From positions 2,751,394 through 2,815,393 of the forward strand of contig CM035310.1 of NCBI GenBank assembly GCA_002900995.3: a DNA stretch of 64,000 bases. Direction: 5' to 3'. Under the pieces are notes generated by a model that worked only from the letters and a program-made list of their open reading frames with translations, was not told where the DNA came from and ran no database searches. The first letter of the stretch is position 1; every line of letters begins with the position of its first letter. Positions 49,667 through 54,703 of the stretch are shown piece after piece. The translations under genes and the position numbers were made by a program. Source of the DNA: Ganoderma boninense (lineage: Eukaryota; Basidiomycota; Agaricomycetes; Polyporales; Polyporaceae).

Positions 49667-52600
49667 ATGGCGCACTCCCACCACCATCACAGTCACCCGC
49701 ATGCCCCTGCAGAGGCCTCGAACTATCCGAAGGAGAACTATGGCCCTGGCGCGAAGTGGATCAAGCATCTCACCCAGAACCGCCTGGGAACGTTCAACGG
49801 CGGTCACTTCTCCGACGTGAACTTGTCGTCGGTGCTCTTTACGCACAGGATTGACAATGAAGAGCATGTCAAGCTGGAGGTCTGGAGCGCTCCAGGGCTC
49901 ACGAAGCCGAGCTTCGAAGAGGCCATGAAGCAGAAGTTCAGGCCGGCCAAGAAGGGGGAGAACTTTGGGCCTTCTTGTGAGTGCTGCGTCGCGCCTCCTG
50001 CGATAAGCACTCTGTGCTGATCCATTGCAGGGGTATGCAGATTATGCAGGATGTATGCGCTATTCTGCTGATGAATTGCGTCTAGACGAACCATTGGTTC
50101 AAGGTCTCCCTGACCATCCCCTCGTACTGGGAACAGTATGATCGGGTTCAGTGTACGTCTTATCACCGCTCCGGAAGCGTCAAATCCTGACTCGTGGCAT
50201 AGTTGAATTTGATCCCGACTGCGAGGCCATGATCTTCACTACCGACGGCACGCCCCTCCAGGGGATTACTGGCGGGTACGGTGGTGATCGACGCGTCGAG
50301 TACATCATTCCTCGCAGCGCTGTCAAGGCTGGCAAACATGAATTCGTCATTGAGTCCAGTTGCAATGGCATGTTCGGCGTTCCTTGGAATGGCGACACTA
50401 TCGCTCCTCCCGATGTAAGTATCCACAGAAACCTTTCAGTTTCAGTGTTGCCGCATTCGGTTTGGGAAGATTCCTCCCTTTCTGGTGTTTCGCACAGAAA
50501 CCAGCTTGCGTCTCACAATTCTAGTTGACGAAACTAGTGGGATATGCGACGCCGCGCTAGTTCTTTGTGTTTGAACGCTCGCGCTCATGATATCGTAGAT
50601 GAACAGGTACTTTGGCCTCCGTTCCGCGGACCTTGTCGTGCCCAATATGGAGGCTTGGCATCTGCTCTGGGACTTCCAAACCTCCGCGAACTCACAGATT
50701 CGCTCCCCGGCAATACCGCGCTCCAGAACAAGGCACTCACAGTGGCGAACGAGATCATGAACGTATTCGAGAACGGCGACACTGCAAGCATCGGACGCGC
50801 ACGGAAGCTTGCCGAGGACGTCTTTGGTAAGCACTGGGAAAAGAAGGGCGAGAAGATCTACCAGGAGGGCGCGAAGAAGGCACAAGTGTGGGGCATTGGT
50901 CACTGCCATATCGACACAGCTTGGTGAGTTAGGGTGGGCGACTCAGGAACCATTGCTGAAAGGAGCTGTAGGTTATGGCCTTATCGCGTCACGCAGCAGA
51001 AGGTTGCGCGTTCGTGGTCTACCCAGGTAGACCTTATGGAGCGATACCCCGAGCACCGCTTCACTTGCAGTCAGGCACAACAGTACAAGTGGCTCGAACA
51101 AGTACTGACATCGTCTCTACCCTCCTGATTTACGCTAACTGCAACAAACTTCTCCAGCAATATCCACCACTCTTCGAACGCGTCAAGGAGAAGATCAAGG
51201 AGGGCAAGTTCCACCCTGTCGGAGGATCCTGGGTCGAGAACGACTCGAACATGCCGTCGGGCGAGGCGCTTGCTCGGCAGTTCATCCTCGGGCAGCGATA
51301 CTTCGAGTCCCGCTTCGGGATCCGCTGCAAGACGGCTTGGCTACCCGACTCGTTCGGGCTCACGGGCGCGCTCCCGCAGTTGATCCGCCTCGCGGACATG
51401 GACTACTTCTTCACCCAGAAGCTGTCGTGGTGAGTGCTAATCTGGCATCGAAAATCGGGATCTGAGGTGTGGGTCCTTGCTGACGATACACACAACGCGC
51501 ACGTAATTTCACGGTTCGCGATGCACGACGGCGGCGGCGTGAATCAGGAACAATATGTGCGTACATAACCGTCGATCCACTCGGACGGAAAGGAAGAAAA
51601 AGTATATCTGAGATCTGTTCGTGGACAGCAACAACTTCCCGCACTCCACGTTCAACTGGGTTGGCATTGACGGGACCCAGGTTCTGTGCCACATGACGCC
51701 CGTCGGTGCGTGCTTGCTTCCCAGCTTCTCATCATTCGCATATGCTGGGCACTGAGTGAAGCTTGTACGGCGCAGACACTTATACCGCACAGGCCACCGT
51801 TGGAGACGTGAAGAAGGGTATTGAGAATCACAAGGTGCCATCGAGACACTATTTTTAATCAGTAGACGGTCCCGCTTATGTTCTGCACCCCCGCCAGAAC
51901 CTCGAGTCCTCCGAGGTCTCACTCCTCGTTTTCGGAAATGGCGACGGTGGCGGAGGGCCCCTCGCCAAGATGCTGGAGAACGTAAGTGCTTCTTTCTTGC
52001 TAAGGTTTTGTGATAATACCCCGAACTCACCGCGGAAGCCCCGCCTCGTGCAGTTGCGGCGCATCCGAGCAACGTCCAACCACTCACGCGACATCGCGCC
52101 CGTGAACATGGGCCACTCCGTTGACGAGTTCTTCGATGTCCTTGCTGAGGACTCGAACGCTGGCGCTAGGCTCCCCAACTGGAGTGGAGAGCTGTACCTC
52201 GAGGTATGTAGCATCCTCGCCAACCGGTGCAGGACAACGCTGACGGGACGGTGGCGAGCAGTTCCACCGCGGAACTTACACTTCGCACGGTGCGTACACC
52301 ATCCGTCGTCCGAGAAGCACGCGCAATGGGCTAAGCTGAGTTTATTGTCCTCAAATCTAGGCTCTATCAAAAAGGGCAACCGGAAGTCCGAGATTCTGCT
52401 TCGGGACGTCGAGGTGCGTATGGCATCGCCCGTGCTTACCGGGCTGGGTGGCGGGTACTTAAGCAGGAGCGGGCGACGTGGTTTTACAGATCCTGTCGAC
52501 GTTTGCGAGTTTGTTCAGGTTCCACAAGGCGGACTATGAGTACCCGAACGCGAGGATCAACGATTGCTGGGAGAAGGTGCTCCTGAACCAATGTGAGTTT

Positions 52601-54703
52601 TTCGTTCATCGGATGTTGAAAGGATTCTGACCGTAGTCTCCTCTGCCAGTCCACGATGGTGAGTACCTTACTGGAGCGCCATGGACGCTGCTGATGGTTT
52701 GATTCCAAGTTCTGCCGGGATCTGCGATGTGAGTCGCATACCCACCGCACCCCCTGTTAGTCTTTCTGACGGCGTCGAATCTCAGTGGCATGGTGTACGA
52801 TGATGCGGAGAAGCTCTACGCCGAGGTCCGTAAGGAAGGTAGGACGCTCATCGAGGAGGCTTTCGAGGCGATGTTCCCCTCCTCCGTTGCGCTCGACGAC
52901 CCAAGCTTCAAGAAGAAGACGGGCACGCTCGTCGGCTACAACACGACGTTCTTCCCTCGCCGCGATATTGTCGAAGTTCCTCTCGTCGGCGGGGGCGCAT
53001 CGAAGCTCCGTTCGCAAGTCGTGCAAGCGTCCAAAGACGGCACCGTCGGGTTCGCTCTCATGGACTGTGCGACTGGTGGGGGCGTCGCGTTCGGTACGGG
53101 ATGTACGCGGATTGCCGACCTGTCTCTGGTATGTGTTATATTTGGAGATGTGGACGTTCAGGTGATTCATTTAGACTTCTTCAGTTTCGCAAGTGGCCAA
53201 GGACCACTTCGTGCTGAGAAACTCGAGCGTCCAGCTGACGATCGTCGATGGTCGCATCACCAGCCTCTATGATGTCGCTCTTGAGTATGTCTGCTGTCTG
53301 GGACCTCTTTACTCTGGACTGACATGTGCTGTAGTCGCGAACTCATTCCGACGGGCGAAACTGGTGGTCTGATCATCTTCGACGACAGGCCGAACTACTG
53401 GGATGCTTGGGGTATGGGCTATCCTTTTCGTATGATATATCCTGTCTGACTTGCTGTAGATGTCGAGATCCACCACCTCGAGAAGTTCCAAAAGCTCAAG
53501 TTCGAGAGTATCTCTATCGCTGCCGAGGGTCCTCTCCGGGCATCGCTGAAGGCGAACGTCAAGTATGGTCAGAGCACTATCAAAGTCCTTGTATGTCACA
53601 CCTTCCTTCGCGAACGATATCCTCGAGTTGAGTGCTCGGGTATAGATCTCCCTGGACGCGATCCCGGCGACAATGAAGAAAACTTCGCGCTCGTTCTTCC
53701 GCTTCGAAGCTGAGGTCGACTGGCATCAGCGCCACGAGTTCCTCAAGTTTGAACTGCCCCTCAATATTAAGAACGACTACGCGACGTACGAGACGCAGTT
53801 TGGACATGTCCAGCGGCCGACGCACAAGAACACGACCTGGGATATGGCTAAGTTCGAGGTCTGCGGTCACAAGGTACGTTCGCTTCTCGATTGCATATCA
53901 TGAGTTGGTTCGCTGACTTCAGGGTGTTTTAGTACGCGGACCTGAGCGAGTACGGGTACGGCGTCGCCATCCTCTCCGAGTCGAAGTACGGGTTCTCGTG
54001 CCGCGGGAACGTCCTTCGAATTTCGCTGCTTCGTGCGGCTACTGCGCCAGATGCCGAGCAAGATCAGGGCAAGCACGAATTCGCGTGGGCTGTCATGCCT
54101 CACGCGGGGTCGTTCTTGGAGTCCGACGTCCCCACCGCCGCGATTCTGTTCAACTCGCCGCTTCACGGTGAGTTCATTCATGAATGTTGTGTCTATGTGT
54201 TTCTTGTCTCACAAGTCATCCTAGTGCGACTCCTAGAGGACACCAAGGAGGCACCGCTCCTGAAGACCAAGCCCCCGTTCATCATCGAGGGCGCTCCCAA
54301 CGTCTTCCTCGAGACTGTGAAGCGCGGATTGGATGACGACTTCGACAAGCACGATTCGCGATCGATCGTCCTGCGTTTGTATGAAGCCTTTGGCGGACAC
54401 GCTGCCATCAAGCTAAGGCTCGCGCCTCAGCTGGGCATCGAAAAAGTTCTTGTGACGAACTTGCTGGAGGACGAGATCGAGGAGCTCAATGTGTCTCAAG
54501 CCGAAGATGAGACCGTCGCTCGTGAAGCTCGAGTTCCACGGCTTCGAGGTCAAGACTATCAAGCTTGTGCTGGGCCCAAAAAAGTACGCGCGGCGTTTTG
54601 ATTTGCATAAAAGGCACGACTATGGGGCTGACGATCCAGTCTGAACAGCGCGGCCCCGAAGAGGGAGAGTTGGGTTACTGTCGAGAAGCCCGCCTTGATC
54701 TGA
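49667..54703 (+). CDS. Vacuolar-type alpha-mannosidase (GH38, Ams1-like), two apparent indels
   Basis: Class II alpha-mannosidase, expected to trim free oligosaccharides in the vacuole or cytosol. About 25 exons: 49667-49976, 50031-50032, 50086-50152, 50203-50414, 50599-50923, 50972-51101, 51158-51429, 51548-51556, 51629-51705, 51776-51834, 51898-51981, 52054-52203, 52262-52289, 52361-52413, 52490-52592, 52650-52658, 52710-52728, 52786-53128, 53202-53284, 53335-53411, 53460-53590, 53646-53873, 53933-54167, 54225-54583, 54640-54703. Starts [12 protein letters not shown]. Catalytic motifs: [14 protein letters not shown] (metal-binding His/Asp) and [12 protein letters not shown] (nucleophile Asp), then QFHDVLPGSAIG. 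The frame slips near 50682 (one C short after WDFQT) and 54519 (one C extra before VKLEFHGF). With both adjusted the length is about 1142 residues, ending [14 protein letters not shown]. The acceptor of the exon near 53185-53202 is ambiguous. Confidence 0.88.
50031..50032 (+). other. Putative 2-nt micro-exon in the alpha-mannosidase gene
   Basis: Exon 1 ends GGG CCT TCT T, followed by GTGAGT. A 54-nt intron ends CATTGCAG, then GG, then GTATGC begins a 53-nt intron ending GTCTAG before ACG AAC CAT TGG. T plus GG makes the tryptophan of GPS-W-TNHWFKV, expected in the family. Both introns have a CTGAT branch-point-like word near the 3' end. No single-intron parse that I tried keeps the frame. 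Confidence 0.7.

Follow-up and report, generated by a model that had tools for sequence, protein, structure and literature searches.

Can two nucleotides stand as an exon of their own, bounded on each side by a complete spliceosomal intron? The question is raised by a 64,000-nucleotide stretch of Ganoderma boninense DNA (here called the window), in which the dinucleotide GG at positions 50031..50032 lies between two short putative introns of an alpha-mannosidase gene. We examined the splice signals and the reading frame at this site, the way in which protein models of homologous genes behave at the same codon, and the order in which two introns so close to each other could be removed.

The mannosidase gene and the segment GG

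In a model built by hand the gene occupies positions 49667..54703 of the forward strand, on which all features given below lie, and is divided into 25 exons by 24 GT-AG introns. One acceptor was later corrected; recalculated by hand, the median intron length (57 nt over the 24 introns of the model) is unchanged. By sequence comparison the product is a GH38 Ams1-like alpha-mannosidase, with its activity and vacuolar place predicted from homology only. This agrees with the identity given by the first-pass annotation: the first 224 residues match the Pfam jelly roll domain PF22907, typical of the Ams1-like N-terminus, with 78 bits against a cut-off of 27, and the sequences of Ams1 structures match the N-terminal part (four hits). 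When the first 500 residues were searched, the closest protein among the matches listed was a GH38 protein of Ganoderma leucocontextum, 94% identical; this protein carries PF01074, PF09261 and PF07748, and its full-length alignment with the predicted product covers the GH38 catalytic part. DNA and protein searches of the organism's own genome (55.6 Mb in 74 contigs), with the best candidates scored, gave no paralogue or second allele beyond this locus. Reading by eye located three single-base breaks of the frame within the assembly's coding exons, near 50680, 53106 and 54510. All three positions are continuous in the G. leucocontextum protein and, since the rest of the gene is well conserved, the breaks look more like sequence errors than like marks of a dead gene.

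Exon 1 (49667..49976, 310 nt), placed in the gene model and with a translation that matches GH38 homologues, ends in phase 1 with GGG CCT TCT T. It is followed by intron 1 (49977..50030, 54 nt, GTGAGT...TTGCAG), the dinucleotide GG (50031..50032), intron 2 (50033..50085, 53 nt, GTATGC...GTCTAG) and, in the gene model, exon 3 (50086..50152), which starts ACG AAC CAT TGG TTC (T N H W F). Both introns are supported by the sequence, the gene model and splice-site scoring; the assignment of GG as exon 2 is supported by the model, by parse enumeration and by comparative evidence. The putative exon is thus bounded by a complete GT-AG intron at both sides and completes a tryptophan codon (T|GG) in GPS-W-TNHWF, codon 104 of the protein, so that the predicted mRNA junction reads CCTTCT-TGG-ACGAAC (CCTTCTTGGACGAAC). 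Coordinates, lengths and intron ends are in the sequence as the first-pass annotation had them, and the lengths that it took for the local norm lie close to the median of the gene. The CTGAT branch-point-like words that it reported were located at 50017..50021 and 50068..50072, 10 and 14 nt from the ends of introns 1 and 2, respectively. Of the gene's 22 other introns, ten have a YTRAY word no more than 20 nt from their end and 12 have none there. The model contains further tiny exons, two of 9 nt, GAACAATAT (51548..51556, in ...LSW-NNI-NNF...) and TCCACGATG (52650..52658, in ...NQ-FHD-VLPG...), and one of 19 nt (52710..52728).

Splice sites were scored with matrices built from the 22 other introns of the gene, each of which was left out in turn for its own score. 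The donors of introns 1 and 2 obtained 7.9 and 4.8 bits (-1.8 to 11.0 for the 22) and the acceptors 5.7 and 6.0 bits (-0.3 to 6.7 for the 22). The values of both flanking introns therefore fall among those of the 22, with the donor of intron 2 towards the weak end. Two alternative 3' sites, CAG at 50040 and 50049, obtained 5.5 and 4.6 bits, about as good as the 5.7 of the site used; with only GT donors, neither would preserve the frame. As a separate question, the two introns were considered as possible products of mutual duplication. Their best local match has 13 columns, 11 of them identical, around the branch word, and ranks only 11th of the 276 intron pairs of the gene; the match is not special and this origin was rejected.

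The frame was then followed through each way of splicing the region. Skipping the exon leads to a premature stop at codon 122, retention of intron 1 to one at codon 118, and retention of intron 2 to one at codon 117. The segment GG is needed for the reading frame, and as skipping or retention yields a stop it cannot act as an in-frame cassette.

All parses from GPS to NHWF were enumerated, allowing GT or GC donors, AG acceptors and one or two introns, none shorter than 40 nt. Thirteen are in frame, and two of these use GT donors throughout: the one with the GG exon, and one with a single intron at 49988..50085. The statement of the first-pass annotation that a single intron breaks the frame is consequently right for the good donor and too broad as a general rule. 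Splicing of 49988..50085 as one intron keeps the frame, replaces W by CECC, and finds some echo in the public G. leucocontextum model, which has the similar run-on CECRV. That model fails at the two-nucleotide exon and also drops residues at both 9-nt exons, and is therefore a poor guide. The donor required, GTCGCG, obtains -9.8 bits, far below the -1.8 to 11.0 of the gene's other donors, and the product loses a Trp found in every transcript-like homologue listed (see below). We regard this parse as hardly credible.

How readily chance produces such an arrangement was estimated by dinucleotide shuffling of the span, repeated 20,000 times. Exons of 2-20 nt that restore the frame appeared 1,714 times and those of exactly 2 nt 670 times; GG was seen in three cases, in none of them together with a good donor and YAG. 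Given the 670 cases in which some two-nucleotide exon restored the frame, it is the Trp that makes the case. The shuffles also bear on a different reading, considered on account of the three frame breaks in the assembly, by which 49977..50085 would be one intron of 109 nt and two coding bases would have been lost, through assembly error or real mutation. Its length would not be foreign to the gene, whose model includes introns of 118 and 184 nt. It requires, however, that the two bases be missing exactly at the junction, and that AG-GG-GT occur by chance, at a frequency already low in the shuffles and zero once good sites are asked for.

Protein models of homologues at the Trp codon

Two protein searches, of which the best 120 of 4,521 and of 5,574 matches were listed, gave 131 distinct homologues; the second search was made from a Sistotremastrum protein and contributed 11 of them. 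The named homologues recognised among the 131 belong to the Agaricomycetes, and the second search added no recognised name from outside this class. Eleven of the 131 were labelled transcript-like, their source tag being lgn or jgi only, their longest contig 3.5-6.2 kb and their frame 1,128-1,280 residues, because so intron-dense a gene could hardly hold such a frame unspliced; the label thus depends on that argument. The remaining 120 were labelled genome-predicted. All 11 transcript-like proteins have GPS-W-[TS]N intact, as would be expected from the first-pass claim that GG completes a Trp typical of the family, whereas 64 of the 120 genome-predicted models listed are broken at this point and 56 are clean. 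The clean models may have been guided by RNA, or may come from genes without one of the introns.

The concentration of failures at this codon was measured over 931 seven-residue segments that are invariant among the 11 transcript-like proteins. Places where these proteins vary, chiefly the variable C-terminal part and the surroundings of residues 680 and 707, were left out, and failure counts there are higher (116-118 of 120). Among the 931, gap-type failures are most numerous in the segment with the Trp, where 57 of the 120 genome-predicted models listed show one. The second- and third-worst spots are the two 9-nt exons, at 51548..51556 and 52650..52658, with peaks of 35 and 34 of 120 and counts of 34, 35, 30 and 30 at their four junctions; from these counts, the 9-nt exons too are probably conserved and misannotated. 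In the 687 segments lying more than six residues from any junction there were at most 18 failures, with a median of one.

The manner of failure is informative. GPS is retained in 54 of the 64 broken models, where it is followed by Cys in 27, by Trp in 11 and by another residue in 16 (F 10, S 2, L 2, Y 1, G 1). Continuation with Cys fits a run-on, T|GT, into the donor of intron 1. Seven of the 27 (P0020, P0041, P0090, P0092, P0111, P0126 and P0127) have the Cys alone, with no run-on or change of length, possibly the work of a spliced aligner that laid the GG of a transcript on the genomic GT after exon 1. In the models that continue with Trp, Val follows in 10 of 11, which fits TGG|GT, a run-on into the donor of intron 2; with a Val background of 7% the binomial P is about 3e-11, a value uncorrected for relatedness. 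The eleventh, P0078 from Gloeopeniophorella, has the run-on WARC, and a GC donor for intron 2 is possible there. Several of the broken models without GPS are also without the eight residues before TNHW, and four models seem to pass directly from exon 1 to exon 4. Failures of this kind at the Trp codon are not what one normal intron should produce; they point to a pair of donors offset by two bases.

Looking up the taxonomy of one species each places broken models in eight orders: Polyporales, Russulales, Boletales, Agaricales, Gomphales, Geastrales, Corticiales and Phallales. The run-on is clear in six and unclear in the Corticiales (Cys only) and the Phallales. That models from other orders break at the same codon, in what appear to be read-throughs of two donors two bases apart, stands against the 109-nt intron with lost bases, which we judge to be very improbable.

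Evidence on the Trp was sought outside fungal gene models as well. Searches of genome contigs gave 19 related loci, all with bacterial titles and none fungal, and viral contigs searched for DNA of relatives contained no related locus. The bacterial loci served as intronless markers: of the 19 submitted to local tblastn, 14 gave a hit, two of them spurious (E 2.9 and 7.0), and in the 12 with a credible local alignment the site is Trp in 11 and Phe in one. These bacterial Ams1-like mannosidases (loci L002-L020) are 29-36% identical in their best segment. Both Ams1 structure sequences for which an alignment was printed, two of the four hits, have the Trp in gap-free alignment. In an alignment of 22 proteins the Trp is invariant, which is no evidence, since the 22 were chosen from models that already had it.

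The splice signals, the constraint set jointly by frame and Trp, and the annotation failures of relatives that fit both donors are directly observed. We propose, as very probable, that GG at 50031..50032 is a real, constitutive two-nucleotide exon between ordinary short spliceosomal introns, that it completes a conserved Trp, and that it would have been inherited in many Agaricomycetes, where gene finders would often miss it.

Order of removal and age of the two introns

With introns of 53-54 nt on either side of an exon of two nucleotides, intron definition is the natural mechanism to consider: each intron would be recognised by itself. The geometry of the site bears on how the two could be processed. 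The last G of the AG of intron 1 is position -3 of the donor of intron 2, and the usual footprint of the U1 snRNP on a donor extends from -3 to +6. A U1 snRNP seated at the donor of intron 2 would therefore cover the 3' splice site of intron 1, and both sites would probably not be fully occupied at once. The likely route would be sequential removal of the two introns rather than their removal together. If intron 1 left first, the donor of intron 2 would become TTGG|GTATGC; if intron 2 left first, the acceptor of intron 1 would become TTGCAG|GGACG. Either looks usable.

A fixed order could also be imagined, a recursive, ratchet-like removal in which the chief role of GG would be to restore a donor once intron 1 has gone. 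The mRNA would be the same and this mode is compatible with a constitutive GG exon. The sequence AG-GG-GT does resemble a recursive splice site at which two bases are kept. Each intron possesses its own donor, branch-like word, acceptor and normal length, so either order is possible, and we consider this recursive mode unlikely. Nor is the locus a stwintron, the arrangement of an external U2 intron whose donor is interrupted by an internal one, as described in the part of the paper cited here (PMC12403724). Like stwintrons as described there, two U2 introns leave one place; here both are complete, two coding bases stand between them and no external intron is interrupted.

The structure of two introns around GG can be given a tentative age. 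The model of Ramaria (Gomphales) has the run-on CAC and that of Sphaerobolus (Geastrales) the run-on WV; both genera belong to the Phallomycetidae. Because their models show run-ons, the structure probably predates the split between Phallomycetidae and Agaricomycetidae, as far as protein models allow it to be read. We think it fairly likely that the GG exon was present in the common ancestor of these two subclasses and has been kept in many lineages, with obligatory one-by-one splicing because the sites overlap. The exon is probably old in the Agaricomycetes and often misannotated there; as conservation is read from protein models, single species may be without one of the introns.

Other ultra-small exons and the meaning of the present candidate

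Constitutive exons of minimal size have been described before. Arabidopsis APC11 has a single-nucleotide exon, located 333 nt into the former intron, that restores the frame and was missed by annotation, as cDNA and constructs established; when changed to TT, the exon was spliced as TT in Arabidopsis and mis-spliced in rice (PMC4674806, passages cited here). The candidate exon of the mannosidase gene resembles it, on that description, in restoring the frame from between GT and AG ends, and differs in having 2 nt, in being flanked by introns of 54 and 53 nt, and in being read from DNA, with a spread across a fungal class that is a deduction. In Fusarium, genes of the CYP621A P450 family have a one-nucleotide exon supported by RNA reads and, according to the abstract, present in 20 orthologues (PMC12940212). 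That case, in the portion of the report considered, is also a fungal ultra-small exon that belongs to a codon of a conserved motif and gives wrong gene models at its site; its core is AG-G-GT rather than AG-GG-GT, and it comes from an ascomycete, unlike the present basidiomycete enzyme with broken models in the eight orders looked up. According to the introduction of the same paper, which cites another, exons of 2-5 bp have been reported from Arabidopsis, Drosophila and human, and the size by itself is less novel for that reason.

From basidiomycetes, intron-dense genes in which introns are short and some exons tiny are likewise on record. The shortest micro-exon is 6 bp in the P450 genes of Phanerochaete chrysosporium (PMC1184071) and the shortest exon 5 bp in the bglA genes of basidiomycete yeasts (PMC9142197), and an 8-nt exon of P. 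chrysosporium is mentioned as well (PMC12940212), in each instance within the part of the source cited. The P450 and bglA genes are alike in kind to the mannosidase gene, with 5-6 bp in place of two. Among the matches listed from the open PubMed Central literature, none described an exon of two nucleotides in this gene or in any basidiomycete. One-nucleotide exons are already in print; what would be unusual here is the breadth of the apparent conservation.

If confirmed, the mannosidase gene would provide a naturally occurring two-base exon that has persisted in many mushroom orders, to be set against the one-nucleotide exons of Arabidopsis and Fusarium. As a natural substrate it would allow one to ask which of two overlapping splice sites acts first, a matter that Guo and Liu left open for the APC11 exon in the passages of their paper cited here (PMC4674806). 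Confirmation would also mean that 64 of the 120 genome-predicted models listed are wrong at a single codon, and a search of protein alignments for this signature could then serve to look for further ultra-small exons.
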